DNA of 64,000 nt, taken from assembly GCA_001768235.1 (NCBI GenBank), contig MENK01000024.1:148468-212467 (forward strand), written 5' to 3'. Shown here piece by piece: positions 1,066 to 64,000 of the stretch (the stretch's first letter is position 1; each line of letters opens with the position of its first letter). A model generated the notes under the pieces. The model was not told where the DNA came from, did not search any database, and was given only the letters and a program-made list of their open reading frames with translations. The position numbers were made by a program, and so were the translations under genes. Source of the DNA: Bacteroidetes bacterium GWB2_32_14 (GTDB taxonomy: Bacteria; Bacteroidota; Bacteroidia; Bacteroidales; UBA12077).

Positions 1066-2082
1066 TTATTCATTCTTTGACAACTCATCTTTAATATAAC
1101 CAAGGGAAAGAAGTTTTTTCTTAATTTCCACAATAGATAGTCGATAAGTATTATGGGAATTATAATCATCAGATGACGATGTTTTTACATCACCATCAGT
1201 AAAATAATTATTATAGTTTAAATCTCTATTATCCGCAGTTATTCTATAAAAATCTCCCATGTCTTCAGCTCTCATCATTTCCTCCCGAGTGCAAAGCGTC
1301 TCATATAATTTTTCGCCATGCCTTGTCCCAATAGTTTTAATTTCGTTATTTGCACTCATAATTTCTTTCACAGCTTGTGCTAAATCACCAATTGTAGATG
1401 ATGGAGCCTTTTGAACAAATAAATCTCCTTGTTTGCCATTATTAAAAGCAAACAACACTAAATCTACAGCTTCATCCAAAGACATTAAAAAACGTGTCAT
1501 ATTAGGATCTGTAATTGTCATTGGTTGTCCTGACTTTATTTGATTAATAAATAAAGGAATTACAGATCCTCTGGATGCCATAACATTTCCATATCGTGTA
1601 CAGCAAATAGTAGTTTCATCTTCAGGTACATTTCTCGACTCTGCGACTATAACTTTCTCCATTAAAGCTTTAGAAATCCCCATTGCATTTATTGGATAAG
1701 CAGCCTTATCAGTACTTAAACACACTACCTTTTTTACCTTTTTATTTATTGCGGAACGAATAACATTAGCTGTACCAATTACATTGGTTTTAGTAGCCTC
1801 TAACGGAAAAAATTCACAAGATGGTACTTGTTTTAAAGCAGCGGCATGAAATACAAAATCCACTCCACGAATAGCATTATCAATACTATCAGGATTTCGC
1901 ACATCTCCAATGTAGAATTTTAACTTAGAATTTTGATAATAATTACGCATATCGTCTTGTTTCTTCTCATCTCTCGAAAAAATTCTTATTTCTTTTATTT
2001 TCGAATCCAAGAATCTTTTTAACACAGCATTTCCAAAAGAACCTGTACCACCAGTTATTAGTAAAATTTTATTCTCAAACAT
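1066..2082 (-). CDS. capE: UDP-GlcNAc 4,6-dehydratase (5-inverting), CapE/FnlA type
   Basis: This is an extended short-chain dehydrogenase of 338 residues, close to the usual CapE/FnlA length. The NAD-binding loop TGGTGSFG spans residues 10-17. The active-site region reads STDK at 123-126, then M134-x3-K138 where classical members have YxxxK; Met in place of Tyr is a known CapE trait. The enzyme converts UDP-GlcNAc to the 4-keto-6-deoxy L-arabino intermediate, the first step to UDP-L-FucNAc. The reading frame is intact, yet the genes for the next two steps (capF and fnlC/capG) are broken just downstream. Its product therefore has no evident use here unless intact copies exist elsewhere. It starts 4 nt after the interrupted acyltransferase gene. 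Confidence 0.9.
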   Translation of the reverse strand: MFENKILLITGGTGSFGNAVLKRFLDSKIKEIRIFSRDEKKQDDMRNYYQNSKLKFYIGDVRNPDSIDNAIRGVDFVFHAAALKQVPSCEFFPLEATKTNVIGTANVIRSAINKKVKKVVCLSTDKAAYPINAMGISKALMEKVIVAESRNVPEDETTICCTRYGNVMASRGSVIPLFINQIKSGQPMTITDPNMTRFLMSLDEAVDLVLFAFNNGKQGDLFVQKAPSSTIGDLAQAVKEIMSANNEIKTIGTRHGEKLYETLCTREEMMRAEDMGDFYRITADNRDLNYNNYFTDGDVKTSSSDDYNSHNTYRLSIVEIKKKLLSLGYIKDELSKNE

Positions 2083-2086
2083 TCTT

Positions 2087-2614
2087 TTATTTCTTATAGT
2101 TATAATACTCTCTTAGCGCTTTATCTTTTTCCTTTCCACTTAAGTGTCCAAACCCTAATGATTCATTTTTTAATTTCTCAAAATATTCATCAGCAGTTTT
2201 TATAACTCTAGCCGGATTGCCAACAACTAATGAATTATCAGGAATATCTTTAGTGACAACAGAACATGCCCCAATAACAACATTATTCCCTATATTTACT
2301 CTTGGTAAAATTACTGTATTAATTCCAATAAATACATTATTACCAACCATAATTGGTTTTGATATCTCTAATGTTGGTTCCCGTTTTCTAAAGGGAAGAG
2401 CTCCACCGTCATGAGTAATGAAAGCAACATTATGAGTTATATGAACGTTCTTTCCTTATGGAATCATCCAAGGTTCTGAATCCCAGCGAATAGTACCATA
2501 AAGCTTGAGCTCTTCATCAATAAAATTGACACCTACTCTCTTAGAATATTTAAGAGGAGCCATCCTTATCTCAAGCCTGTTTCTTAATGCTTTTACAAGT
2601 CTAAATAATTTCAT
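2087..2614 (-). pseudogene. Left-handed beta-helix acyltransferase with in-frame premature stop
   Basis: Starting at ATG 2614, 52 codons (MKLFRLVKAL...WMIP) are followed by TAA at 2456-2458. The same frame then continues with GKNVHITHNVAFITHDGG and hexapeptide repeats to the end at 2087. Without the stop the product would be 175 residues, like the 178-residue paralogue at 6408-6944. Aligning the two by eye, the stop sits where the paralogue has Ile in the segment ISIGNHV. There is no frameshift, so this looks like one nonsense change (or base error) in a sugar O- or N-acetyltransferase. The C-terminal piece from an internal ATG at 2350 lacks most of the first coils and the FITHDGG motif, so it is unlikely to be active alone. 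Confidence 0.85.
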
Positions 2615-2645
2615 AAATTATTTTTTTAATTTAACCAACAATCCT

Positions 2646-4046
2646 TTAGATATTAATAATCTTACTATTTAAATATAACTTTTTAACTTTAATTAATACA
2701 GACGGAATAATAATTACTAAATAAAATATTGCGCCAACCCAGGGAATGGTTTCAATCCCATAAATATTTGACAAAATAAACTTTAAAGGTAAACTAATAG
2801 CAAAATATATAAAGAATATAATTACCTGATATCTAATAATATTAGCAGCATTTAATACCATAAAATACGGTGAAATAAAAGAAAGCAATAACTGCATGAA
2901 GCCCATACCAATTAATAAAACTTTAGAATAACTAAAATTACTATTAATCCAAGCTTTTAATATAAAATCAGAAAATAGCAATAGAAAAGCAATGGCGAAA
3001 ATTGAAATTCCAATAGATATAATAGAAATGCGGCGGGTATTTTTTTTTACCCAGTTTATTTCTCCCTTAGCAAATGCTTCGCTAGAAGCTGCCCACATTG
3101 GTGTACTAATCATAACGCAAGCAATACTTATTAAACTAGCCAACTTAAAAAGTATAGCATAAGTTCCTGATTCTTCCAAACTACTAGTTCTGGCTACAAT
3201 GAAATTATCTAAAGCTAAACTTAAAGTTGTAAATATTGATAATATTAAGAATAATAGACCTGTTTTTAGTAAGGAAAAAGCCATTTTTTTATTAAAATAC
3301 TTAAATGTTGGACTAAGTACCTTTCGCTCCTTTCTAAAATAATAAATTAGATTAGCAAACGATACTATTGCAATTGCTGAAGATGCTCCCCAAACCATTG
3401 CCAACTTTCCTGCGTCAGCTTTAATTGTTACATAAATTAGAACCAAGCTTATTATTGCTGCCATAGATGACCATATATTACTTTTATAACCTTCTTGCAA
3501 AGCCAACTGCGTTCTGGTCACTATACTCAAAGGGATGGACAATAACTTCGGTAAAACTACAGCCAAGACTACACCTGAAGCTAAAATAATAGCTTCCTTA
3601 GTATTTGCATTCATTACCTCTCCCCATTTAATAAATTTAAAAATACTAAGAAATATAATATTAAACAGCAATGTTACTCCAATCAGCATATAAAAGGTGC
3701 TGGCTATCATTTCTTTACTTTTTTTAATATCATTTTTCCCATACGCATTTCCTAACATTGTTCTTAATCCATTACCCAAACCTAAATCAGCAAAATTAAA
3801 TAATGAAAAAAAGGATATTATTGCCACCCACAAACCATATAATTCCGGACCAAGATAATTATATGATAATTTAACAGTTATCAAAGGTATTGAAGCTCCC
3901 AGCACTTTAGCTATAACAGATGTTATTGCAGTTAAAGCCATTCTCCTATACCTTTCTTGTGACCTTCCTTCTCTTGTTGATGTATCAAAAGGCTTTCTAA
4001 AGGCCAAAAAAAGTAAATTTTTAAACTTATTTAATGTTTTCTTCAC
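2646..4046 (-). CDS. wzx: Wzx-type polysaccharide flippase
   Basis: This 466-residue integral membrane protein has about 12-14 hydrophobic segments and the Polysacc_synt/MATE-like pattern of lipid-linked oligosaccharide flippases. Examples are LGPELYGLWVAIISF near residue 84 and LGLGNGLRTMLGNAYG after it. It would move the undecaprenyl-linked repeat unit across the inner membrane. The start overlaps the end of the upstream Wzy candidate by 20 nt, suggesting translational coupling. A charged N-terminal stretch of about 40 residues precedes the first membrane segment. The assignment rests on topology, length and locus context. Confidence 0.85.
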   Translation of the reverse strand: MKKTLNKFKNLLFLAFRKPFDTSTREGRSQERYRRMALTAITSVIAKVLGASIPLITVKLSYNYLGPELYGLWVAIISFFSLFNFADLGLGNGLRTMLGNAYGKNDIKKSKEMIASTFYMLIGVTLLFNIIFLSIFKFIKWGEVMNANTKEAIILASGVVLAVVLPKLLSIPLSIVTRTQLALQEGYKSNIWSSMAAIISLVLIYVTIKADAGKLAMVWGASSAIAIVSFANLIYYFRKERKVLSPTFKYFNKKMAFSLLKTGLLFLILSIFTTLSLALDNFIVARTSSLEESGTYAILFKLASLISIACVMISTPMWAASSEAFAKGEINWVKKNTRRISIISIGISIFAIAFLLLFSDFILKAWINSNFSYSKVLLIGMGFMQLLLSFISPYFMVLNAANIIRYQVIIFFIYFAISLPLKFILSNIYGIETIPWVGAIFYLVIIIPSVLIKVKKLYLNSKIINI

Positions 4047-5229
4047 ACTTTGATAAATTGTTTAGATAATAAATAACAAAGACAATAACAAAAGGGAAAC
4101 GATAACTATAGGTGGCTGGTAAGGCTAGTTCAAAAGAAAAGATAATAAATAATATAAACCAAATATAACGAACATTAATATTACGTACTAAAAAATTATA
4201 TAATCTTGTATAAATAATTATTATCAAAGGGAAACTTCCCATTGTTAAATATACAATATATCCAGAATCACTATATCCAATTTTCATATTATCAAAAATA
4301 CAAAACCCTATACCCATTGAACTCAATATTATCTTAAAATTATTTTTAAAAGAACCACCATCAATTAAGTATCTCGCTATCAATCCATTTGTGTCACTCT
4401 GTGTAATAAATTTATACCTTTCCCATAGTGTTTCCCACATATTAAATATGACAATAATAATTATTCCTAAAATTGAAAATAAAACTATGGGTTTTTTTCT
4501 TAAAAGCCATAGCAACATAATTGTCATAATTATACCATAAACCAAACTAGAATTTGAAGTTAAAAAAACAGTAAAAAAAACAGTAAATCCACAATATATG
4601 TAGAATCGCATTAGGCCAGTTCTAATTGCTGTTACATAACTTAAGTAAAACATTATTATATAAAAGTAAGATGCCCAGGTATGAACACCAAAACTCATAA
4701 CTGTTTTCTTATAATAAAAAGTATATTCTAAGGCTTTCTCATAATATTGAGAGTAATTATTTATAGTAAATTCCTTTATAAAATCACTTCCTAATAAAAT
4801 CAAGATATTCCAAATTAACATTGCAATAAAGAAAATATCTAAAAGTCTTCTCATATATCTTTGAGAAATTTTATAATCATTAATTTTAAAAGATGTAAGA
4901 TAGATCAATGATAATACAGGAGCAATTCTATATATAGAAAGTCGTGCATCATTATTTCGTATTAAAGTAAAAATCGTTATACTTCCAACATATATAATAA
5001 TAAAAACCAATCCTCTTATAAAAAGATTATAATTTATTCGATTAAATAATCCAACATATGATATATATATAACAATTATTATCCAAACTGTCAGAGTCCA
5101 TATTATACCAAATATCTCTGAATTATGAGAAGTTGGAATAAAAGTAAACATAATCAATGCTAAAAGTGGAATTAATTTTCTTCCAAATTCCTTAATATTT
5201 TCGCTATTAATCCCAAACTTAAAATTCAT
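4027..5229 (-). CDS. Putative Wzy O-antigen/capsule repeat-unit polymerase
   Basis: The 400-residue protein is almost wholly hydrophobic, with about 11-12 predicted membrane helices and one larger hydrophilic loop (about residues 265-310) in its second half. This layout is typical of Wzy polymerases, which share little sequence identity. It lies between the flippase and a GT4 glycosyltransferase, and no other polymerase candidate occurs in the locus. Wzy joins repeat units on the periplasmic face. It is 12 nt from the upstream glycosyltransferase and overlaps wzx. A WaaL-type ligase or another EpsG-like protein is the main alternative. Confidence 0.7.
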   Translation of the reverse strand: MNFKFGINSENIKEFGRKLIPLLALIMFTFIPTSHNSEIFGIIWTLTVWIIIVIYISYVGLFNRINYNLFIRGLVFIIIYVGSITIFTLIRNNDARLSIYRIAPVLSLIYLTSFKINDYKISQRYMRRLLDIFFIAMLIWNILILLGSDFIKEFTINNYSQYYEKALEYTFYYKKTVMSFGVHTWASYFYIIMFYLSYVTAIRTGLMRFYIYCGFTVFFTVFLTSNSSLVYGIIMTIMLLWLLRKKPIVLFSILGIIIIVIFNMWETLWERYKFITQSDTNGLIARYLIDGGSFKNNFKIILSSMGIGFCIFDNMKIGYSDSGYIVYLTMGSFPLIIIIYTRLYNFLVRNINVRYIWFILFIIFSFELALPATYSYRFPFVIVFVIYYLNNLSKCEENIK

Positions 5230-5241
5230 CTAACTTTTTCC

Positions 5242-6411
5242 TTATGCTTTATTATATAAAGATTCGAGCATTTTCTTTAAATCTGATGAATAAATTCTAT
5301 AGTCAAAACTTCTTTCAGCTTCTTTTCTTGCTTCTATTCTCAATTGTTTATGATCATTATAATTTTGATTAAGAAGTTGTTTAAAAATATTTAATAAATA
5401 ATCCACTGAATTTTCTTCTAGAAAATATCCATTAACACTCTCTTTTAGATACAATTCAATATCACCTGTTTTATTAGTTATTACAGGTGTACCTGCCATC
5501 ATGCTTTCTGCTAACTTTGTTGGAAAGCCAGCTTCATTAGATCGTTTTTGTGGTCTTATAAAAATGCTATAATCAGCATTCTTATAAATATCATGAATTT
5601 CTGGTTGGGGAACTTTCCCCTTTATATTAACACAATCAGAAACAGAATCTAATAACTCTGTGTTATTAGAAATATTTTTCAGTACCGTATCTTTTGTTGA
5701 TCCATAAATATTATATTCTATTTTGGTCCTTTCCTTACCTAGTTTTTTTAAAGCTAAAAATATATTTTCAAATTTTTCTTTATGTGTCCCAGAAAAACCA
5801 ATTTGCACAATAACTAATTTTTTATTGTTTGTTTCTAATGAATAATCATTATTTTGTACATCAAGAATAGTAGGAATTCTAATTACATTTTGAGTAAATG
5901 ATTTAAAATATTGTTGTAGATACCTACTAATTGCTATAACACCATCAGATTTTACATATTCACTTTGTATAACTCTATTATAAATTATATTATACGGATT
6001 AAATTTACCTAATCTTCTAGAGTTAGTATCATACCATTCTCCAATTTCCAAAACACATGGAATTCCTTTCTCTTTGCAAATCGACCTCATTCTCGAAAAG
6101 CGATCATAACAGTTTCCTAATATAACTATATCAACATTATGAGTAGAAATATATTTACGAAAAATTGAGACAGAGAATATTGTGCACTTTATCCTATTTA
6201 ATGGTGATGGTACGTTAGTAAGAACCTGATAAGAGACATGTTCAAACTGAAATATTTTATTTCTACTCACATTATTCTGAAAAGAATAATCACTAATAAT
6301 ATGTAGTTTATAACCTAATGAATAAAACAATCTTGCAAAATTCTGAAGTCTAGAAGAATATGCTCCACCATAAGGAAATATAGCTGGAGATATATAGAGT
6401 AATGATTTCAT
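5242..6411 (-). CDS. GT4-family glycosyltransferase
   Basis: This 389-residue GT-B fold transferase has an N-terminal acceptor domain with the glycine-rich FPYGGAYSSR near residues 12-21. Its C-terminal nucleotide-sugar domain carries the EX7E-type pair at E293 and E302 (EAGFPTKLAE), then AGTPVITNKTGDIE. It has no signal peptide, so it should add one sugar to the lipid-linked repeat unit at the cytoplasmic face. Its stop-proximal end is 12 nt from wzy and its start overlaps the neighbouring acyltransferase by 4 nt. Donor and acceptor cannot be read from the sequence. Confidence 0.85.
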   Translation of the reverse strand: MKSLLYISPAIFPYGGAYSSRLQNFARLFYSLGYKLHIISDYSFQNNVSRNKIFQFEHVSYQVLTNVPSPLNRIKCTIFSVSIFRKYISTHNVDIVILGNCYDRFSRMRSICKEKGIPCVLEIGEWYDTNSRRLGKFNPYNIIYNRVIQSEYVKSDGVIAISRYLQQYFKSFTQNVIRIPTILDVQNNDYSLETNNKKLVIVQIGFSGTHKEKFENIFLALKKLGKERTKIEYNIYGSTKDTVLKNISNNTELLDSVSDCVNIKGKVPQPEIHDIYKNADYSIFIRPQKRSNEAGFPTKLAESMMAGTPVITNKTGDIELYLKESVNGYFLEENSVDYLLNIFKQLLNQNYNDHKQLRIEARKEAERSFDYRIYSSDLKKMLESLYNKA

Positions 6412-45984: not shown

Positions 45985-46500
45985 ATGAAGAAATACGATG
46001 TCATTATAAACCATAAAGGTATTATAGACCTTGAAGTTATAGATGATATTCTTCTGAAATTAAAGAATTATTTGCATGAAAATAAAATTGAACTTGTTAT
46101 ACGAAAACGTGTTTACACGCTGGCTGTTGAAAGTTTAGATAATATATATAAACACGCAGATCATTCTATTCATATTCAAAAAATTATATCCGAATTTCCA
46201 CCACGATTTATAGTCGAAAAAATCTGCGACGATTTTGTCATTCATACCGGGAATATCATTTTAGAATCGAATAAAGAAAAGATAATTAGTAAACTGGAAC
46301 GAATAAATACACTTTCACAGGAAGAAATAATTCAATTGTATAAAAAGTCATTAAGCCATGCTGAGATTTCAGACAAAGGCGGAGCTGGATTAGGACTTAT
46401 AGTTATGGCTAAAACAACAGCACAAAAAATAAAATACGATTTTGATAAAATTAACGATAAGTTCTTTTATTTTGCAATGCAACTAACCATAAAAAAATAA
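45985..46500 (+). CDS. siaB: SiaB-family protein kinase (DUF6272)
   Basis: The 171-residue protein is a GHKL-like ATPase: VYTLAVESLDNIYKHADH near residues 43-60 as the N-box region, and SDKGGAGLGLIVMAKTT near 130-146 as the G-box. In Pseudomonas aeruginosa SiaB phosphorylates SiaC, and SiaA (a PP2C phosphatase) reverses it to control diguanylate cyclase SiaD. Here only siaB and siaC are present, 11 nt apart. The partner phosphatase and output are not in the window. Confidence 0.8.
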   Translation: MKKYDVIINHKGIIDLEVIDDILLKLKNYLHENKIELVIRKRVYTLAVESLDNIYKHADHSIHIQKIISEFPPRFIVEKICDDFVIHTGNIILESNKEKIISKLERINTLSQEEIIQLYKKSLSHAEISDKGGAGLGLIVMAKTTAQKIKYDFDKINDKFFYFAMQLTIKK

Positions 46501-46511
46501 TTTCAGCTATT

Positions 46512-46919
46512 ATGAAAACTATAAATATAGCTTCAACAGAGAAATCTCCAAAAGTATTTTTTGACCCCAGGAAACATGTTTTTGAAATGGAAGGAAATTC
46601 GCGCCCGGAAAATGTTCGTGATTTTTACTATCCGATTATTGATACTTTACGCGATTATTTTGAAGATATTGCTGAAAAACAAACAAGAAGCGAAACAAAT
46701 AACGCGTTTAACTTTAATTTTAAGTTGGAATACTTTAATTCGGCATCTGCAAAATTTATTTCAGATATACTTGTAATAATTAGAAACGGATACGATAAAG
46801 GAATAAATATGAAAGTAAATTGGTATTTTGATGAAGGCGATGATGATATGAAAGAAGTAGGTGAAGATTTTTCTGAAATGATATCATTCCCCTTTAGTTT
46901 TATTATGGTTAAACGATAG
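46512..46919 (+). CDS. siaC: SiaC-family regulatory phosphoprotein (DUF1987)
   Basis: The 135-residue protein matches DUF1987/SiaC: an N-terminal STEKSPKVFFDP, then FEMEGNSRPENVRDFYYP and FKLEYFNSASAKFI. S77 is the probable counterpart of the Thr phosphorylated by SiaB in Pseudomonas SiaC (Thr68). Unphosphorylated SiaC activates SiaD there; in Bacteroidota the target is not known. It directly follows siaB and is probably cotranscribed, with the SDR gene 35 nt further on. Confidence 0.83.
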   Translation: MKTINIASTEKSPKVFFDPRKHVFEMEGNSRPENVRDFYYPIIDTLRDYFEDIAEKQTRSETNNAFNFNFKLEYFNSASAKFISDILVIIRNGYDKGINMKVNWYFDEGDDDMKEVGEDFSEMISFPFSFIMVKR

Positions 46920-55442: not shown

Positions 55443-57191
55443 TTATCGAAGAATTTTCCGTACAAAAGCAACGGTAAAGTACGACATCATAAATACTCCT
55501 GTAAATGCTGTAATATCGGCCAAATAACGTATCGGCCCAATTGGTAAAATGTCTCCGTATCCCACGGTAAAATAAGTAATTCCTGTATAATAGACTGCAT
55601 CCCAAAATCTCAACCAAAAGGAATCGCCTTGCTGGACCGAATTTAAACTTGAATTGGTAAGATATGGTATTATTGTATAAAGTAAAGCATACATAAAATA
55701 AATTACAACATTACTAAAAATTACTCTCACAGGTGAAGTTGCATAGAGTCCCATCCAGTCGAATACCAGCATTTTAAAACCGTAAGCAGGGAATTGCCAG
55801 ATTGCAGAAATCTTGTTTTTTTGTATTGATTCCAATAATATGGCTTTTGATTCGTTTCGTTTAAATTCAATATATGCCTTATCTTCATCATCATATTGTC
55901 CGGCACTATTGAAGTTTTCTTTTAAAATACGGAATTGTTCTGCTTTTTCGCGTTTGCTGGTTGAAGATTGAGAATAAATTAAGTTTTTAACATTGTTTGA
56001 ATCCCAGTTGAGATAAATCCTTCCAATAAGCCGAATACCCGCGAAATTAACAGTTTTAATGTTTACCTGAAAATCGTAGGGTTTAAAATCAATGATATCG
56101 CGTCCCAGAGAATCGGAGAGGTCAAGGAAATTACATTCAGCTAATCTCAAATCAACATAATAATCGAGATGGCATGATTTAAGCGAGAGCTCCATTATAT
56201 GAGAATTGTAAAAGCTTAGGTTTCCGGTACCAAAATCGGCATTATCGAGAAAAAGCAGTGTTTTATTAAATTCGACTTGTTCAAATGAAACATTCCCGGC
56301 ACCCCACTGTGATTTTCTCATTGTAATTTTTCCGCCATTGTGCTGGCATGCTTCGAAAGTTTTTTCACCATTTCCAAAAATTGCCCTGTTAAAGCTTACT
56401 TTGGCATCTTTAAATTCTACAGTTCTGAAATCTACTTTCCCGTTTCCAAATTCGGTTTGTTCAAAGACGACCTCGTTGCAATGAAAACGGGCAAAATGAA
56501 AATCTTTTTTCCCGTCACCCATTCGTGCAACTTTAAACGAAACCCTGTCGGATTTGAATTCTGAATTTATAAAAGTAATATCGCCATGATTAAATTCGGT
56601 ATTCATAAAAAGAACATCCCCATTACCAAAGTGGGCATCTTGAAAGTTTTTATGCCCGTTGCCAAAATTGGAGTTTTTAAAGCTTACTTCACCATCACCA
56701 AATTGGGCGTTTGAAAAATCAACATTTCCATCTTTAAACAAAGCGTAACTGAAATTAAGCCCGCCTAAATTAAAATTGGTGCCGTGGAAGTTTATCGAAC
56801 CATTCAGAAAATGAGCATTTTCAAAATTTTTATAATTGTTGTCGAACTCGGCATGTGAGAAATCGGTTTCTACACGTGAATCAAAAAAGGTGTTGTATGC
56901 AGAAAATTGGTGAAGTTTAATAGTTGCTTTCTTCTCAATATTTCTACTGGTTCGGTAATCATCAAGTGAAAAATTTTCTACATAACACTGGTCGATATTT
57001 ATTGTTTTTTCTTTATCTATTAATCTATAAATATCTTCGCAGTCAATATATCCCAGTTCAATATATGCAATTTCTTTTTTATTTTCGTCCAGAAATGAAA
57101 TAGCTGCTGTGTTTTGATACTTAATTCCTGATTCGGTTACAAACGGGGTATCTTTAATTTTTACTTTATAATTGTAAAAGTTATTTATCAT
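55443..57191 (-). CDS. Potassium channel with N-terminal tandem 12-residue repeat domain
   Basis: The 582-residue protein has three parts. Residues 1-103 are a beta-rich start. Residues 104-331 hold 19 tandem 12-residue repeats (18 well kept from 116) of consensus F-G-[ND]-G-x-V-x-F-x-x-[AST]-x. Residues 332-470 are a linker with pentapeptide-like strands. The C-terminal two-helix pore (about 480-582) carries the selectivity filter TVGYGD at 542-547. Pentapeptide-repeat channels are known, but the strict 12-residue period here differs from the usual 5/20 pattern. The repeats likely form a solenoid that senses a ligand or partner. The gene shares its strand with the Ca/Na antiporter 65 nt downstream. 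Confidence 0.85.
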   Translation of the reverse strand: MINNFYNYKVKIKDTPFVTESGIKYQNTAAISFLDENKKEIAYIELGYIDCEDIYRLIDKEKTINIDQCYVENFSLDDYRTSRNIEKKATIKLHQFSAYNTFFDSRVETDFSHAEFDNNYKNFENAHFLNGSINFHGTNFNLGGLNFSYALFKDGNVDFSNAQFGDGEVSFKNSNFGNGHKNFQDAHFGNGDVLFMNTEFNHGDITFINSEFKSDRVSFKVARMGDGKKDFHFARFHCNEVVFEQTEFGNGKVDFRTVEFKDAKVSFNRAIFGNGEKTFEACQHNGGKITMRKSQWGAGNVSFEQVEFNKTLLFLDNADFGTGNLSFYNSHIMELSLKSCHLDYYVDLRLAECNFLDLSDSLGRDIIDFKPYDFQVNIKTVNFAGIRLIGRIYLNWDSNNVKNLIYSQSSTSKREKAEQFRILKENFNSAGQYDDEDKAYIEFKRNESKAILLESIQKNKISAIWQFPAYGFKMLVFDWMGLYATSPVRVIFSNVVIYFMYALLYTIIPYLTNSSLNSVQQGDSFWLRFWDAVYYTGITYFTVGYGDILPIGPIRYLADITAFTGVFMMSYFTVAFVRKILR

Positions 57192-57282: not shown

Positions 57283-60165
57283 TTACCTGTTGCATAATTG
57301 TTTATAGGGGCAATTTTTACAGGTGGTTAAATCTTCTGTTTGACTAAAGTTTATTGCCGGATTATATATTTCGTTTATCAATTTGCTTAGTTCTTCGCTA
57401 AATTCTGTATTTATTGTTTTGTAATCCGAGATGAATGATTTATCATCTTTTAAAAGTATATGAAAATCAAAATTATTCTCAAATAATTTACGCAGAGAAT
57501 AAATCCCGGGAATAACAGGTAATTCTGGTTTTTCATTTTCTGTATAAAATTTTGAATAGATAAACGTTTGAAATACGGCACTATTCTGGTCATCTTTTTT
57601 ACCTGAAAAAAGGGAATTTATGTTTTTAAATTCGAGTTTATCGTTTCCCGATTTGTAATCGACAATACGAATTTGTGAGTTCATTTTATCAATCCGGTCG
57701 ATTTTACCGCCCAGGTTTACTTTGTGTGGTGAGTTATTAACAGTTGCCGAGACATTTATCAAATAGTTATTTTCAAGAGAGAGTATATCGAAAGGAGTAT
57801 ATTGTTCATCAACTTTCACTATTTGCCTGATGTATTTTTCAATCACTTCGCGGATAATAATATTCTTTCCCAGGTAAACGGTTTTACCTGCGGATTTAAA
57901 ATATTCCTTGTTAAAAGCTTCATCAATTGCATTTGTAATCGTATTCTCATTTTTTAATATAGAAAGCAAAATTTCGGAATCTACAGTTTTTCCAATGTAA
58001 GGATTATACAAAACATGCATGGCCTCGTGCAGTATATTTCCAAACAAAGGAGCATCAATTTCTTCTGTTATTTCATCTTTTTCCTTTAAGCCGGAAATAT
58101 GCCGGAAATAGAACTGGAGTTTACATTTTAAATACGAGCTGATAGCACTTGGAGAGATATATTTTTGTTCTTCAGTATCGGATGCATGATATTTTGCAAG
58201 TTTTTTTAAAATATCATTGTTTTTAAATATTGAAATTTCCTTTTGTGTTTTTGTATTGATATTGTACCGGATACTTTTTTCATTTACAAGATACATGTTT
58301 TCGAATTTAAGCTGGTATATAAACCGGCTCATTTCGCCCGATTGCAAACCATCTGTTTTCGAGTTGTAAACCAGGGTTATATTTTTTGCCCGCTGGATTA
58401 AACGATAGAAATAGTAAGCATATATGGCATCCTGGTGTTCGATGGTGGGTAATCCAAATCCTCGTCGCAGGTTGTATGGAATAAATGATAAGGATGATTC
58501 TGACTTTGGAAAAATCCCTTCATTTACCGATAAAACAATAAGATTTTCAAAATCAAGCAAGCGGGTTTCCAATATGCCCATTATTTGTAAGCCTGTTAAC
58601 GGCTCGCCGGTAAAAGGAATGCGCAGGTTGCGGATGATTTTGCGCAATAACCTGATAAACGTATCGATTTTAATTTCAACTTTTTGTTCTGCAAGAACAT
58701 CTTTTACCCTGTTTACCGATAAATAAATATGATATATGTATTCTTTCTCTATTGACAATGAATGAATATTTTCTTCTGAGTTTGTTGAATATAATGAGTT
58801 GTAAATTTGATGAATGATGGAAAGTATATATTCCGATAACTCAATGTAATTATTAATTCTTTTAAAGATGCCAACAAAAAAACTATTTTTTCCTAATTCA
58901 TCTGATGTCAGCTGAATACGATTCCTGGTTTGAATGTGCTGAATAAGTTCTTCGGCGGTATTGGTAAATTGTGATTTTATGTATTGATGATTCAATATGG
59001 CCAGCACATTTTTATGATAAAAAGTGATAGTACCTGTTGAAGATTGTTTACTGTTTTTTTGTAGCCCGATTATGTGTTCGAGTAAGCTGTAAATAGGCGT
59101 ATTTATTACAGGGTACCCCATTGTAATATTTACTTTGTTTATTGTGTCGGGTACAGAATGAATTACAGGTATAAGCAAGTGTTCATCGGCTAATACAATA
59201 GCTGTTTTATCGGGCGAATCGGTTAATTGATACGTATTCTCAAGTAGTTTTTGAGTAATTAGTTTTGCCTGTCCAACATCCGAAGGAACCGAGATTATTT
59301 CAATATTTTTGGACGATGTTAAATTTGTAAAATTTACTTTTGTTTCAAAAGCAATATTTTGCTTGTAATTTACCAGGTTCTCACGTAGAAAATAACCTGC
59401 TTCGTATTTCTCATTTTTAATATAAAGCTCATCGTAATCCCAGTAAAAATCTGCTTTTTTATTGTTATTCAAATGCGTGAATAATACTTTTTCGCAGTTG
59501 TTTAAGGCATTAAATCCAATAAAAACATATTTTGAGTGGTTTAGTTTTACATTGGAATTGTCTTTTAATTTATCGGCAACGGTTTTGTACACCATACCCT
59601 CGTATGCAATGGTGCCGGCTTTTAGATTCGTGTTGAATTCGGTATAAATATCGAAAAGAACGTTCCAAATGCTAATAAAATCCTGTTGATAAAGTGAATT
59701 TTTTTCAGGATCAAATGATTTCCAGAATTCCTGTATAGCTTCCAGTTGTTTTTCGGAGAGATAAGCAAACTGGTCATGTATTGATTTCAGGTTTTTCAGG
59801 TTTTTGAATAAATCACCAGGATTAACCAGGTACTTGTCAATATTGTCGAAATCGTTCAGGAGCATTTCACCCCAGAAGTAAAATTCGTCAAAACTTTCGT
59901 TTGATTTTTTTACTTTAGTATATACTTTGTAAAGCTCAAAAAGAAGTTTAATGTTATCGGCAACCTGTAAACCCGAAATATCCTGTACAAGCTCGTTAAT
60001 TGTAGTTGTAGTTGGCGACCAGATAGGTTTATCGGCAAGCTCGGAAAGATATTTTTTAAAATACAAGCTGGCCCTGCGATTTGGAAAAACAATGCATAAA
60101 TCGGAGATATTTTCTCCATACCGTGAATAAAGATCAGTTGCTATATGTTTTAAAAATGGTTCCAT
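57283..60165 (-). CDS. addB: AddB-like PD-(D/E)XK nuclease/inactivated helicase
   Basis: The 960-residue protein has a helicase-like N-terminal region (LCIVFPNRRASLYFKKYL near residues 22-39) without a classical Walker A GxGKT. It ends in a RecB-type nuclease domain: H713, D823 (GKIDRID), D836 and K838 (VDYKSG). Cysteines C681, C949, C952 and C958 match the AddB iron-sulfur-staple arrangement. With AddA it would process double-strand breaks for RecA. It overlaps the radical SAM gene by 16 nt. Confidence 0.88.
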   Translation of the reverse strand: MEPFLKHIATDLYSRYGENISDLCIVFPNRRASLYFKKYLSELADKPIWSPTTTTINELVQDISGLQVADNIKLLFELYKVYTKVKKSNESFDEFYFWGEMLLNDFDNIDKYLVNPGDLFKNLKNLKSIHDQFAYLSEKQLEAIQEFWKSFDPEKNSLYQQDFISIWNVLFDIYTEFNTNLKAGTIAYEGMVYKTVADKLKDNSNVKLNHSKYVFIGFNALNNCEKVLFTHLNNNKKADFYWDYDELYIKNEKYEAGYFLRENLVNYKQNIAFETKVNFTNLTSSKNIEIISVPSDVGQAKLITQKLLENTYQLTDSPDKTAIVLADEHLLIPVIHSVPDTINKVNITMGYPVINTPIYSLLEHIIGLQKNSKQSSTGTITFYHKNVLAILNHQYIKSQFTNTAEELIQHIQTRNRIQLTSDELGKNSFFVGIFKRINNYIELSEYILSIIHQIYNSLYSTNSEENIHSLSIEKEYIYHIYLSVNRVKDVLAEQKVEIKIDTFIRLLRKIIRNLRIPFTGEPLTGLQIMGILETRLLDFENLIVLSVNEGIFPKSESSLSFIPYNLRRGFGLPTIEHQDAIYAYYFYRLIQRAKNITLVYNSKTDGLQSGEMSRFIYQLKFENMYLVNEKSIRYNINTKTQKEISIFKNNDILKKLAKYHASDTEEQKYISPSAISSYLKCKLQFYFRHISGLKEKDEITEEIDAPLFGNILHEAMHVLYNPYIGKTVDSEILLSILKNENTITNAIDEAFNKEYFKSAGKTVYLGKNIIIREVIEKYIRQIVKVDEQYTPFDILSLENNYLINVSATVNNSPHKVNLGGKIDRIDKMNSQIRIVDYKSGNDKLEFKNINSLFSGKKDDQNSAVFQTFIYSKFYTENEKPELPVIPGIYSLRKLFENNFDFHILLKDDKSFISDYKTINTEFSEELSKLINEIYNPAINFSQTEDLTTCKNCPYKQLCNR

Positions 60166-61112
60166 ATTTTATTTAAAAGTTTCCCTTGCCAGGTATCAAG
60201 TTCTTCCAATCGTTTTTCAAATTTAACCAAAATCTGGTCGTTACGAATTAATCCCCAACCGGGGCCTGCCAAAAATCGTGGTGGTACTTCACCGGCAAAT
60301 CTCTCAATTACAAATGAAGGGTTTAATCTTTCAATAAACTGAATAAAAAAGTCGATGTATTCAGGCAATTCGAAAAATGTAAAATTCTCCGGATGTTCAT
60401 TGAATTCTTTTTCCATAGCTGTTCCTTTAATAATTTGTAACTGATGGAACTTAATGGTGTCAAGTGGGAGCGATGAAATAATTTTTGCTTCATTCAATAT
60501 TTCTTCTTTCGATTCTCCAGGCAACCCGATAATAAAATGTGCACCGGTTTTTATTCCCATCTGTTTTGTTTTTTCAATTGTTTCGACAGATTGCTCGAAT
60601 GTATGTCCACGGTTTATGCGTTCGAGTGTTTTATTGTAGCACGACTCAACCCCATATTCAATAATAATGTAATGCGACCGGGATAATTCTTTAAAATATT
60701 CAAGTTTTTTGTCATCAATACAATCGGGGCGAGTACCTATAACCAGTCCAACAACACCGGGAATATTTAATGCTTCGTTGTAAATAGTTTTAAGCTTGCT
60801 CAAAGGAGCATAAGTATTTGAATAAGACTGGAAATATGCAAGGTAATTTTTAGCCCGCCGGTAACGATTAATATGAAATTCTATTCCTTCTTCTATTTGC
60901 TGTTTTATAGATTTCTCAGGAGTACAGTACGATGGATTAAACGCATCGTTGTTACAATAAGTACAACCACCTGTGCCTTTTGAACCATCGCGGTTAGGGC
61001 ATGTAAAACCTGCATCAATTGTAACTTTCTGAACTCTTTCGCCTAAAGTACGCTTGAAATATTCACTATACGAGTTAAATCGCCTGTTATGGCCCCAGGG
61101 ATAGTTTATCAT
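60150..61112 (-). CDS. TIGR01212-family radical SAM protein (YhcC-like)
   Basis: The 320-residue protein has the unusual cysteine arrangement of this family: C38 in TCPNRDG, then C50 and C53 in GGCTYC, in place of CxxxCxxC. Downstream motifs are LAYFQSYSNTYAP, GTRPDC and GAHFIIGLPGE, typical of Elp3-like radical SAM folds. The reaction is not known. Here the gene is sandwiched between addA and addB and overlaps addB, so at least its expression is tied to the repair genes. Confidence 0.88.
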   Translation of the reverse strand: MINYPWGHNRRFNSYSEYFKRTLGERVQKVTIDAGFTCPNRDGSKGTGGCTYCNNDAFNPSYCTPEKSIKQQIEEGIEFHINRYRRAKNYLAYFQSYSNTYAPLSKLKTIYNEALNIPGVVGLVIGTRPDCIDDKKLEYFKELSRSHYIIIEYGVESCYNKTLERINRGHTFEQSVETIEKTKQMGIKTGAHFIIGLPGESKEEILNEAKIISSLPLDTIKFHQLQIIKGTAMEKEFNEHPENFTFFELPEYIDFFIQFIERLNPSFVIERFAGEVPPRFLAGPGWGLIRNDQILVKFEKRLEELDTWQGKLLNKIWNHF

Positions 61113-61172: not shown

Positions 61173-61204
61173 AGCTATCAGCTACCAGCTTTTAGCTACC
61201 AGCC
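61173..61204. repeat. Heptanucleotide tandem repeat AGCTAYC over the addA stop codon
   Basis: AGCTATC, AGCTACC, AGCTTTT and AGCTACC are followed by AGCC, at exact 7-bp spacing. The addA stop codon (61192-61194) and its last codons (AGS) lie inside the array. Confidence 0.7.
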
Positions 61205-64000
61205 TTAATTATTCCCAAATCTACATACCACAAGTAGCCTTCAACCGGTTTGTTGTGCATTTCTTTTATTATATCCATGTAGGTTCTTACTTGTTTATAA
61301 TGTTTTTCTTCTTCCTGTTCACCGAACTTATAATCGATTACAATTATTTTTTCTTTTCCAATTAAAACCCGATCGGGGCGGGCTATTTTACCATTTTTTA
61401 AAAGAATTTCCCGTTCCGGTTTTACCAGCCATTTATCGCTAAACCAACTCTTTATCTGTTCGTTTTTAAATGTCTGATTAATTTTTTCAGAGATATCATT
61501 TTTTTCATTGCCTGAAATTTTTCCTTCAAAAGTCATTTTCTCAATTGCATCAGGAATATCTTTTTCGGTGTTAATATTCTCAAATATCTCGTGCATAATT
61601 TTGCCATGACTCACCCTTTTAAATGGGGTATTTTCCTTTCCTGTAAAAAAGTAGTTGTCGTGTAATTTTAAACGGAGTTTATTTTGAATTTCAAAAAAAG
61701 GATAATCATTCATCATGATTTCTTCGGGTAGATCTTTTGGTTTTTCACTGAAATATTCGAGTTCACCAAATTCAAGTATTGATTTTTCTTTATCAAAAGA
61801 TTCTGTAAAATTGATTAATTCATTATTTGCAGGTTTTGGAAAGCTTTCAGTATTCTGGTAAACAAAGTGCAAAAGTTCTCCCACGGTTGATGGTGATTTT
61901 GATTTTTCCTTTACCTGTGAAAAAGTAAACAAGGCTTGTTCTGCGCGTGTAAAAGCTACATACAGGAGATTCAGGTTATCCACATAAGCATGCAGTTTCT
62001 CGTTAAAATAAGCATCGCTAAAAATAGTTTTTGTAAGCTCAGATTTATATTTAACAGGAATAAGCTCAAGTTTATTGAAAGGTTCTTTTTCGGGTTTACA
62101 CCACAAAATATTTACCTGGCTTGGTTTATGATCAATTTCCCAGTTGCAAAACGGGATTATCACTGCTTTAAACTCCAGGCCTTTCGATTTATGAATGGTA
62201 ATTATACGGATTGCATCCTGATTCTCAGAAATGTTGAGCGTTTCGTTAAATCCTTTTTCGTTCCACCATTCTATAAAGGTATGAATGTCGGCAGATTTAT
62301 TCCTGCTGAAATTGAGAACAATATCCTGAAAGGCTTGTAAATAGGGAATGTCTTGTTTAAGTTGATTCAAATTAAAAATCTTTATTATTTGATCGGTTAG
62401 CTCAAACAGGGGAAGTTGTTTCAATAAATCCAGGGAATTTAAAAAAACTGACGGGAGACTTTTTTGCAATTGGTTATCCTTTTCGTGTAAGAAACTTTCA
62501 GGAAATGCCTGAGAATCTTTTTTTACAGGCTCTGTGTTGATTATATTTTTCTGATAATTCCAGGCAAGATAAGCCGTGTTTATGTCATCACCGGGATCGA
62601 GAAGAAAATTTAAAACCGATAAAATGAAAGGAATAACAGTCGAATTTACAAGGAAAAGCGAGTCATTCGAAATAAAATCAAAGCGATATTTTGTAGTTTC
62701 TGTTAACGAATTTTTATATTGAATCAACGTGTCGGCAATCTCCTGGCCTTCAGAGCCTCTCCGAACAAGAACCGCGATATCATTTAAGCGGAATCCTTTA
62801 TCCTGTAAGTTTTCGATTAATTTAGGGACACGATTTTTTACTTCTGTTTTCCATTCCTTAAATTCAGAATCTTTAAAAAAGGTATGGTGAACATATCCGC
62901 CATCGTTGTCCATTCCTTCAGGATTTTGCTGAATAATATCGCTATAGGCATTTACAATTTTATTCTCGAACCCGGGATTGGATTTGGGCAGTTGTTCATT
63001 AAAATGGTTTTGCAGAATTGTTGACGAATACCAAAATGCGGCGTTATTGTATGCAATAATTTTCTTTTTGCTGCGCCAGTTGATTTTTAACGATTGTAAA
63101 TCGGGAGTAAACTGCGAGAAATCGTTGTTTACATTTTCTGACAGTATTTTCCAATCGCTGTTTCGCCAACGGTAAATCGACTGTTTTACATCGCCAACAA
63201 GCAGGTTATTGTTTCCTTCGGCAAGGCTGTTTCCTATTAAGGGTTTAAAGTTATTCCACTGAATGCGCGATGTATCCTGAAACTCATCAATCATGAAATG
63301 CTTATAAATACTGCCTGTTTTCTCGTAGATAAATGGAGAGTCATTCGTGTCGATAATAATCTGTAAAAGCCTGCCCGCGTCCGAAATAAGGAATATTCCC
63401 TGTTCTTCGCAGTAGGATCGGAGTTTGTTGGCAATGTCGGTTAAAATGCCCAGTGTATGTATAAACCTGAGTATGTTAAGCGAAGTATAATAATCAACAT
63501 GGTTTTCGTTGTAAAAATGAATTGCATCAAGCAGTAGTTCGAATAAACCATTATGAAGAGCATTCTCAATAATCTCTTTTTTGGGACTGTCTTTTTTAAT
63601 CCAGGGATCTATACTTTCTGTTCCACTTATGGCTCTTGTTCTTGGTTCAAAATCATTTTTTTCAGAAATATTGATGAAATATCCGGCTACACCAGATTTC
63701 CCGTAACTAAAATCTTCAATGGTGAGGCCATTTTTTTCGATAATTTGTAGTCCTTGCTTACCGAAGGCCTTTAGTGTGTTTTCGAACTTCGCCTTTATTT
63801 CCTGCAGCTTGTTCAGGTAATCCTTAAGAAAAGCCTTGTCATTCATTTTTTTGATAAGTGCCTGGTCGAACGATTTATATTCTTCTTTAAAAATCTCTTG
63901 TGCCAGTTTCAGAATATCGTTTTTGAAGTCCCATTTCGAACCTTCTTCAATGTTAGTTAATGCAAAGTTTACAAGCCATTCGCGTAATTCTTTATTTGAT
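61192..64000 (-). CDS. addA: AddA-like UvrD/RecB helicase-nuclease, 5' end beyond window
   Basis: The frame is open to the right edge (residues before 63846 read ...EEYKSFDQALIKK), so the gene starts outside the window. About 936 residues are visible: motif II DEFQDTS, motif III LLVGDVKQSIYRWR, motif V ITIHKSKGLEFKAV and motif VI LYVAFTRAEQAL. A C-terminal RecB-type nuclease follows (ARPDRVL... then VIDYKFG). Walker A should lie off the edge. AddA is the active 3'-5' helicase and nuclease subunit of AddAB; with the downstream addB it forms a double-strand break repair complex. Confidence 0.88.
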   Translation of the reverse strand, partial: SNKELREWLVNFALTNIEEGSKWDFKNDILKLAQEIFKEEYKSFDQALIKKMNDKAFLKDYLNKLQEIKAKFENTLKAFGKQGLQIIEKNGLTIEDFSYGKSGVAGYFINISEKNDFEPRTRAISGTESIDPWIKKDSPKKEIIENALHNGLFELLLDAIHFYNENHVDYYTSLNILRFIHTLGILTDIANKLRSYCEEQGIFLISDAGRLLQIIIDTNDSPFIYEKTGSIYKHFMIDEFQDTSRIQWNNFKPLIGNSLAEGNNNLLVGDVKQSIYRWRNSDWKILSENVNNDFSQFTPDLQSLKINWRSKKKIIAYNNAAFWYSSTILQNHFNEQLPKSNPGFENKIVNAYSDIIQQNPEGMDNDGGYVHHTFFKDSEFKEWKTEVKNRVPKLIENLQDKGFRLNDIAVLVRRGSEGQEIADTLIQYKNSLTETTKYRFDFISNDSLFLVNSTVIPFILSVLNFLLDPGDDINTAYLAWNYQKNIINTEPVKKDSQAFPESFLHEKDNQLQKSLPSVFLNSLDLLKQLPLFELTDQIIKIFNLNQLKQDIPYLQAFQDIVLNFSRNKSADIHTFIEWWNEKGFNETLNISENQDAIRIITIHKSKGLEFKAVIIPFCNWEIDHKPSQVNILWCKPEKEPFNKLELIPVKYKSELTKTIFSDAYFNEKLHAYVDNLNLLYVAFTRAEQALFTFSQVKEKSKSPSTVGELLHFVYQNTESFPKPANNELINFTESFDKEKSILEFGELEYFSEKPKDLPEEIMMNDYPFFEIQNKLRLKLHDNYFFTGKENTPFKRVSHGKIMHEIFENINTEKDIPDAIEKMTFEGKISGNEKNDISEKINQTFKNEQIKSWFSDKWLVKPEREILLKNGKIARPDRVLIGKEKIIVIDYKFGEQEEEKHYKQVRTYMDIIKEMHNKPVEGYLWYVDLGIIKAGS

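Follow-up and report, generated by a model that had tools for sequence, protein, structure and literature searches.

Prokaryotic K+ channels with two transmembrane helices, such as KcsA, MthK, and KirBac, are built on a TM1-pore-TM2 plan with a T-x-G-Y-G-D filter, to which MthK and the Kir channels add C-terminal domains. Pentapeptide repeat proteins (PF00805, PF13576, and PF13599) are beta-solenoids with a core of Phe residues and a small residue two positions before one core Phe, and they are organised with a period of 5 and a coil of 20 residues. In a review on these proteins (PMC8145042), they are defined by at least eight contiguous five-residue repeats, and the standard coil comprises four pentapeptides. 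The combination of a solenoid and a channel has a precedent in HalA, the membrane effector of the Hailong anti-phage system (PDB 9nyi), which has been described as an ion channel blocked by DNA adducts (PMC13275509); Hailong has also been grouped with systems in which single-stranded DNA acts as a decoy for sensing anti-defence activity (PMC12657218).

The stretch of DNA analysed here, hereafter the window, covers 64,000 nucleotides from Bacteroidetes bacterium GWB2_32_14 and contains, at positions 55443-57191 of the reverse strand, an open reading frame of 582 amino acids encoding a predicted K+ channel which differs from the two-transmembrane channels mentioned above in that its putative regulatory domain is N-terminal and is a solenoid. 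The pore is recognised by the Pfam model Ion_trans_2 at residues 500-580, with 44.3 bits against a curated cut-off of 22.5, and the same model is found in 68 of 68 aligned family members at E <= 1. An AlphaFold2 model built from these 68 sequences has a mean pLDDT of 91.8 and a pTM of 0.79, and displays an N-terminal alpha/beta cap, a long solenoid extending to about residue 395, a hairpin of two helices (413-430 and 433-458), a helix at 460-480, and a membrane part made of TM1 (487-511), a pore helix (525-542), and TM2 (554-581). All features of the channel being on the reverse strand, the cap (residues 1-100; block pLDDT 84-95) corresponds to positions 56892-57191, and is followed by the twenty 12-residue units of the solenoid (residues 104-343; positions 56163-56882), delimited from the register, the covariation, and the strands of the model. 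The end of the solenoid (residues 344-395; positions 56007-56162), defined from the model and the alignment, lacks the 12-residue register and contains many conserved residues. Both the model and conservation delineate the helical hairpin linking the solenoid to the membrane (residues 413-458; positions 55818-55955), in which E436, D437, Y440, F443, R445, and E447 are invariant among the 68 sequences. The modelled helix preceding TM1 (residues 460-480; positions 55752-55814) is a possible coupling helix. Then come TM1 (residues 487-511; positions 55659-55733), a model helix that aligns to K+ channel pores, the pore helix with the TVGYGD filter (residues 525-547; positions 55551-55619), supported by the model, by structure alignment, and by the invariance of T542, G544, Y545, and G546 in the 68 sequences, and the model helix TM2 (residues 554-581; positions 55449-55532), which reaches the C-terminus. 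Model and sequence thus both place the T-x-G-Y-G filter between two transmembrane helices, and the fusion of a beta-solenoid to a K+ pore that the earlier note had proposed is borne out by the confident model together with the Ion_trans_2 match.

Comparisons with solved structures treat the two halves differently. With VIA-align, the solenoid half aligns to parallel beta-helices, for instance the Sf6 tailspike 2vbk (Z 22.2, rmsd 4.1, 323 residues aligned). Parallel beta-helices such as the Sf6 tailspike are right-handed, and it is on this alignment that a presumed handedness of the channel solenoid rests. The last 205 residues (378-582), when modelled alone, reach a mean pLDDT of 83.7; no Foldseek match at E <= 0.001 was found for this model, and it superposes on K+ and cyclic-nucleotide channel pores, HCN1 (9bc6) being the first row with Z 12.5, rmsd 1.9, and 97 aligned residues. 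At the sequence level, searches of the PDB with the single protein and with the full profile matched pores (for the full profile, among the best 60 of 292 matches). A profile of the solenoid gave no credible match in the PDB (3 sequences, best E 0.24), and residues 104-529 retrieved only a designed trefoil (E 0.23).

The repeat itself is a continuous 12-residue register running without insertion from residue 104 to residue 343 of the window channel, of which residues 104-331 correspond to window positions 56199-56882 and residues 116 to 331 contain 18 regular units. Residue identity at lags of 12, 24, and 36 amounts to 0.26-0.27, with z values of 10.3 to 11.0 that were reached by 0 of 1000 shuffles, in agreement with the earlier claim of a strict and uninterrupted register. 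At lag 5, the z value is 1.7 and was equalled by 62 of 1000 shuffles, and the window channel, with its period of 12, does not have eight contiguous five-residue repeats. Among the 18 units counted from residue 116, Phe occupies position 1 in 15, Gly position 4 in 13, Val, Ile, or Leu position 6 in 14, Phe position 8 in 16, and Ala, Ser, or Thr position 11 in 15. The literal F-G-[ND]-G is present in just 5 of the 18, meaning that the register is strict while the residues are a consensus: from the motif F-G-[ND]-G-x-V-x-F put forward previously, F1, G4, and F8 are retained in this sense and the literal opening is not. The same preferences are observed across the 68 family members (F1 in 80%, G4 in 79%, and F8 in 96% of units, with Val, Ile, or Leu common at position 6 and Ala, Ser, or Thr at position 11). 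Tandem Repeats Finder detected no DNA-level tandem array inside the channel repeat, which is therefore an old protein repeat, and a recent expansion at the DNA level was rejected on that ground. Finally, a comparison of odd and even units revealed no 24-residue alternation in residue use, a difference as large being obtained in 101 of 300 random splits.

The length of the solenoid coil was evaluated from covariation, computed as mutual information with average-product correction over 80 sequences. It peaks at lag 24 (0.73 sd, standard error 0.10), where 21.8% of the pairs belong to the top 5%, with a weak echo at lag 48 (0.23), and is absent in these sequences at lag 12 (0.06) and at lag 20 (0.02). 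The sole lags that approach it are those of sequence neighbours, lag 1 (0.47) and lag 2 (0.55). After thinning to 70% identity, the remaining 34 sequences still show this signal (0.69), as does an analysis leaving out the core positions 1, 4, and 8 (0.66), and lag 24 is the top lag in both random halves of the sequences, lag 26 being second (0.31). In 50 column-shuffled controls, the maximum over lags 6-61 was 0.24. Since covariation at lag 24 indicates that stacked neighbours are 24 residues apart, one coil consists of two 12-residue units, with sides of 7, 5, 7, and 5 residues, rather than of the 20 residues of a standard pentapeptide coil. In the same line, the mid-solenoid strands of the model can be read as two interleaved series, in each of which a strand recurs every 24 residues. 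A coil of 12 residues, as occurs in antifreeze proteins, was rejected since covariation is found at 24 and not at 12, and a 20-residue pentapeptide coil was likewise discarded, there being a signal at lag 24 and none at lag 20. The earlier suggestion of a solenoid other than the standard pentapeptide helix is thereby upheld, and the length of the coil is fixed at 24 residues without a solved structure.

The earlier idea of a repeat peculiar to this channel, on the other hand, found no support. Of 75 plasmid records matching the window protein, 63 are from Streptomyces, and the 12-residue register, read by eye as F-x-x-G-x-V-x-F-x-x-A-x, is present in WP_329583145.1, QKW32468.1, and WP_330323294.1, encoded on Streptomyces and Nocardiopsis plasmids. 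In all three, identity is highest at lags 12, 24, and 36, and all three already bear the name 'pentapeptide repeat-containing' and are matched by the Pfam model Pentapeptide_3. The channel's repeat is consequently not new, and represents a form of the pentapeptide repeat with a period of 12 (7+5) and a coil of 24 residues where ordinary pentapeptide proteins have 5 and 20. Common to both are the beta-solenoid and the Phe core, in which a small residue stands two positions ahead of one core Phe. Pentapeptide_3 is also found in 16 of the 68 channel family members at E <= 1 (best E 7.4e-14), and the window protein itself has no Pfam pentapeptide match at this threshold. The three actinobacterial proteins show no Ion_trans_2 match at E <= 0.01 and, unlike the window channel, carry their solenoid behind what appear by eye to be hydrophobic N-terminal stretches. 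Many of the 75 plasmid records are matched at several positions, and the set also includes four genera of halophilic archaea and one Aeromonas. A closer parallel in architecture, a protein of 448 amino acids (L053), is encountered in the same order as the window genome: it likewise joins an N-terminal pentapeptide region to a C-terminal two-transmembrane pore matched by Ion_trans_2, but its repeats are ordinary pentapeptides (Pentapeptide_4, Pentapeptide_3, and Pentapeptide) and its repeat region is shorter than that of the window channel. As a side observation, the window protein matches the PHROG families phrog_25690 (E 9e-30, residues 108-230), phrog_15350 (E 4e-6, residues 239-577), and phrog_7872 (E 0.005, in the pore), the first two being phage-protein families with no assigned function. 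These matches suggest that related solenoids, or even channels with such a solenoid, may exist in some phages or prophages; tblastn searches of phage records with the window protein and with a long relative (L172) as queries found none.

Within the genus, the channel was detected in 17 of 19 other genomes, 15 times at full length without internal stops and twice in part. At E <= 1e-60, the order sample has it in about 70 genomes out of 393 (counted by eye, own genome included), and at E <= 1e-20 the class sample has it in 18 of 294 other genomes, one of these being a pore fragment only. In the phylum sample (394 other genomes), a single-sequence search gave only short matches, in 47 genomes and nearly all in the pore. 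Scanning 84,980 species genomes with a first alignment of the family yielded 351 stretches, of which 307 were confirmed as relatives, though not necessarily full-length ones, by tblastn at E <= 1e-3; an earlier scan of the species genomes with the single protein had given 9 stretches and 0 confirmed, and 228 pattern stretches in viral contigs also led to 0 confirmed. The best 80 of the 307 were kept; by title they all belong to Bacteroidota or Chlorobiota, nearly all are metagenome-assembled, and 3 are partial or broken. They supplied the alignments used throughout, namely A2 (the window protein together with 67 of these 80 loci, hence 68 sequences), A3 (79 of the 80), and A4 (27 of the 80), the scan itself having used A1. 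With a profile of the solenoid only (E <= 1e-6), every match in the class sample fell inside a channel already found (14 of 14 other genomes), so that in this sample the solenoid goes with the pore. In one relative (L052), a remnant of 49 residues of the channel C-terminus, 59% identical, lies at about 3866-4015 between addB and trmD, as if the rest of the channel had been deleted in place. Comparisons with Pfam, the PDB, and the NCBIfam HalA model did not assign the profile to an already characterised channel family, which is in line with the suggestion of the earlier note that the gate may not have been described before. Among the literature matches listed, no title or start of an abstract naming a channel with this solenoid was found, and the word 'channel' is absent from the main text of the pentapeptide review PMC8145042. 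The channel family is real and, as far as literature searches reach, uncharacterised.

Three size classes can be distinguished in this family. In the short form, to which the window channel belongs, 71 of 79 sequences have no insertion or deletion in residues 104-343 and 8 of 79 have a one-residue deletion, these 79 including two loci cut by a contig end (L066 and L070) and excluding, as did the covariation counts, one locus split into two frames in its contig (L105). In the class-level form, exactly 24 residues are missing at residue 131 in 17 of 17 proteins examined (the eighteenth class-level locus being the pore fragment), some of which have one-residue deletions elsewhere in the solenoid. 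The long form has 84 additional residues near residue 185 in 21 of 22 proteins examined and 83 in the remaining one, L177 and L178 not being counted among long forms; many long forms have small indels near residue 106, and both the long and the -24 forms show small indels of 1 to 8 residues elsewhere. The additional block has the appearance of seven units duplicated in tandem within the protein: with six lags tried, the best match between 84-residue blocks occurs at lag 84 in 16 of 22 long forms, at lag 48 in 4, and at lag 72 in 2, compared to lag 84 in 1 of 68 short forms. As the classes differ by 24 and 84 residues, length changes by whole units of 12, and the step of seven units indicates that an odd number of units is allowed.

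Within the solenoid, a polar and charged stripe is conserved. In the units starting at residues 164 to 284, positions 9 and 10 have a mean conservation of 0.65-0.99, against 0.30-0.55 for positions 3, 5, and 12, the stripe having been picked after looking at the data. The same two positions also score high in the units starting at 104 (0.61), 140 (0.63), and 332 (0.93). Residues conserved in at least 88% of the 68 sequences comprise K172/N173, Q184, N197, N209, K220, H232, E244/R245, R256, N268/R269, and E280 at positions 9 and 10, and, off these positions, R223 (position 12), D254 (position 7), and K181 (position 6). Coming after the core Phe, positions 9 and 10 should point outward. Folding could itself constrain them and explain part of the signal, but the stripe is our strongest indication that the mid-solenoid is more than a spacer.

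Taken together, these data lead us to propose, with a probability of about 0.6, that the protein is a tetrameric K+ channel of the inner membrane, regulated by an N-terminal cytoplasmic beta-solenoid that bears an outward-facing polar stripe. In such a model, each subunit would place TM1, the pore, and TM2 at its very C-terminus, and about twelve coils of two 12-residue units each, with their Phe residues turned inward, would form the cytoplasmic solenoid. The mid-solenoid stripe, mostly unit positions 9 and 10, would be the probable site for a ligand or a partner, whose binding would move the hairpin (413-458) and the helix preceding TM1 (460-480), and this movement would in turn open or close the pore. 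Gating would proceed through TM1 because a C-terminal gating domain is absent.

The genes surrounding the channel could provide an indication of its function. On the same reverse strand, the window contains, in this order, an AddA-like UvrD helicase/nuclease (61192-64000; its open frame, 1085 aa long in the genome, begins outside the window), a radical SAM protein (60150-61112; Radical_SAM and Radical_SAM_C), an AddB-like nuclease (57283-60165; PDDEXK_1), the channel, and a Na/Ca exchanger, the three first assignments coming from Pfam and the AddB name from the gene pair. The gap between addB and the channel is 91 bases, and strand and spacing suggest that addA, the radical SAM gene, addB, and the channel gene are co-transcribed. 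Six neighbours in the window were scanned with Pfam (AddB, AddA, radical SAM, Na_Ca_ex, DUF5698/DUF2179, and DUF6122), and none of them is a nucleotidyltransferase, whereas HalA has the DNA-synthesising nucleotidyltransferase HalB next to it. Upstream sequence of at least 1.5 kb is available at 91 loci, which were not thinned and, coming from two genome searches, may partly be of the same species; addB is upstream on the same strand in 53 of them and within 400 bases in 44. All 53 are among the 77 loci of size class 0 (53/77, or 44/77 within 400 bases), and none are among the 14 long-form loci; none of the window's neighbours were detected in the 14 class-level loci of the -24 form, where AddB was sought by phmmer with the window protein at E <= 1e-6. 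The linkage to addB, confined in this way to size-0 loci, is old in one clade and not general, and constitutes a lead for function, not a proof. Other genes accompany the long form. In 6 of 15 clustered long-form loci, including L194 at 4466-6010, the channel is preceded on its own strand, at a distance of 25-308 bases, by a gene family whose scanned representative is a fusion of DUF6272 and SiaC. Another gene family, whose scanned representative is a polyphosphate kinase, is near 5 of the 15, for instance L191 at 1455-3599, and in four places it follows the channel on the same strand after 8-135 bases. In the window itself, two small genes at 45985-46919 resemble, by eye, a SiaB-like (DUF6272) and SiaC-like pair.

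Both this neighbourhood and the comparison with HalA bear on the possibility, which we consider unlikely, that the protein is a nucleic-acid-gated channel of the HalA type, in which single-stranded DNA or an oligonucleotide on the solenoid would set the pore and AddAB would supply or remove this ligand, thereby linking DNA-end processing or phage attack to the membrane potential. HalA in complex with oligodeoxyadenylate (9nyi) is the best fold match of the full-length channel model and, in Foldseek, the only one at E <= 0.001 (E 1.1e-4, probability 1.00, TM-scores 0.27/0.43), but its rmsd is 10.9, and HalA is absent from the best 50 VIA-align rows for the full-length model as well as from the best 50 structure-comparison rows for the pore half (residues 378-582). 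The HalA chain comprises 371 residues versus 582 for the window channel, and no sequence match above chance relates HalA to the window family: the NCBIfam HalA model NF051894 (cut-off 250 bits) matches 0 of the 68 aligned members at E <= 1, the window protein included, and, among 7 further members, only the long form L172 (E 4e-4), no better than the chance matches of its siblings (hydrogenase, 1e-4). The same model has matches at E <= 1e-5 in 86 of 198 phylum genomes (own included), none above the cut-off and, among those listed, most of them located in frames some 200 aa long; 2 of 14 control genomes were matched as well, which shows that weak HalA matches are unspecific. As for the ordinary pentapeptide protein L053, its repeat stretch aligns to residues 81-161 of HalA (E 0.0073). 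PADLOC has no match for the window protein at E <= 0.01 and a single weak one (E 0.014) among the 68 members. The proximity of addB, upstream in 53 of 77 size-0 loci and at 91 bases in the window, would fit a supply of ligand by AddAB, and so would the correlation between AddB and channel distances (r 0.92 over 46 loci, 0 of 2000 permutations). However, this correlation is what joint vertical inheritance alone is expected to produce, AddB is missing upstream in 14 of 14 long-form loci and nearby in 14 of 14 -24-form loci, and the acidity of the solenoid, whose net charge averages -12 over residues 100-375, is unfavourable for DNA as a whole. The channel may work like HalA in outline, with a solenoid crown setting the pore, membership in the HalA family being unsupported by sequence. 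It would be bolder still to regard it as a housekeeping counterpart of HalA, in which a K+ channel encoded on the chromosome and passed on vertically would use its solenoid of 24-residue coils to sense nucleic acids or nucleotides produced by AddAB, and we hold this to be improbable.

Less remote, while still doubtful in our opinion, is that the solenoid serves as an arm for protein docking or localisation, or as a scaffold, on a channel that leaks or whose gating depends on voltage or lipid, the stripe then being a protein interface. According to the review cited above (PMC8145042), domains of the pentapeptide type may mimic DNA, receive proteins, or provide a scaffold. Besides, the stripe runs over units of both parities and hence over two faces of the coil, as would suit a large protein interface, and the 84 residues added in long forms make the arm 3.5 coils longer, a change that might be incompatible with a precise gate. 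Against this, the arm joins TM1 directly through a hairpin with invariant charged residues, suggesting coupling, and no neighbour common to the three size classes, each analysed separately, was seen. It is scarcely credible, finally, that the repeats are a low-complexity filler or an artefact of annotation or assembly. Repeat-rich proteins are indeed prone to such errors, but several observations speak against it: within the genus, 15 of 19 other genomes encode a full-length relative free of internal stops and 2 more a partial one, only 3 of the 80 loci kept from the species genomes are partial or broken, many individual units have conserved residues peculiar to them, the model is confident, and covariation peaks at lag 24.

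If the channel did sense products of AddAB, DNA-end processing or phage attack would directly change the membrane potential, and a functional AddAB link would in any case join DNA repair to the membrane potential. The size classes, differing by -2, 0, and +7 whole units, constitute a natural ruler for repeat solenoids, and the family, being large, lends itself to studying how a K+ pore may be gated by a beta-solenoid attached on its N-terminal side.
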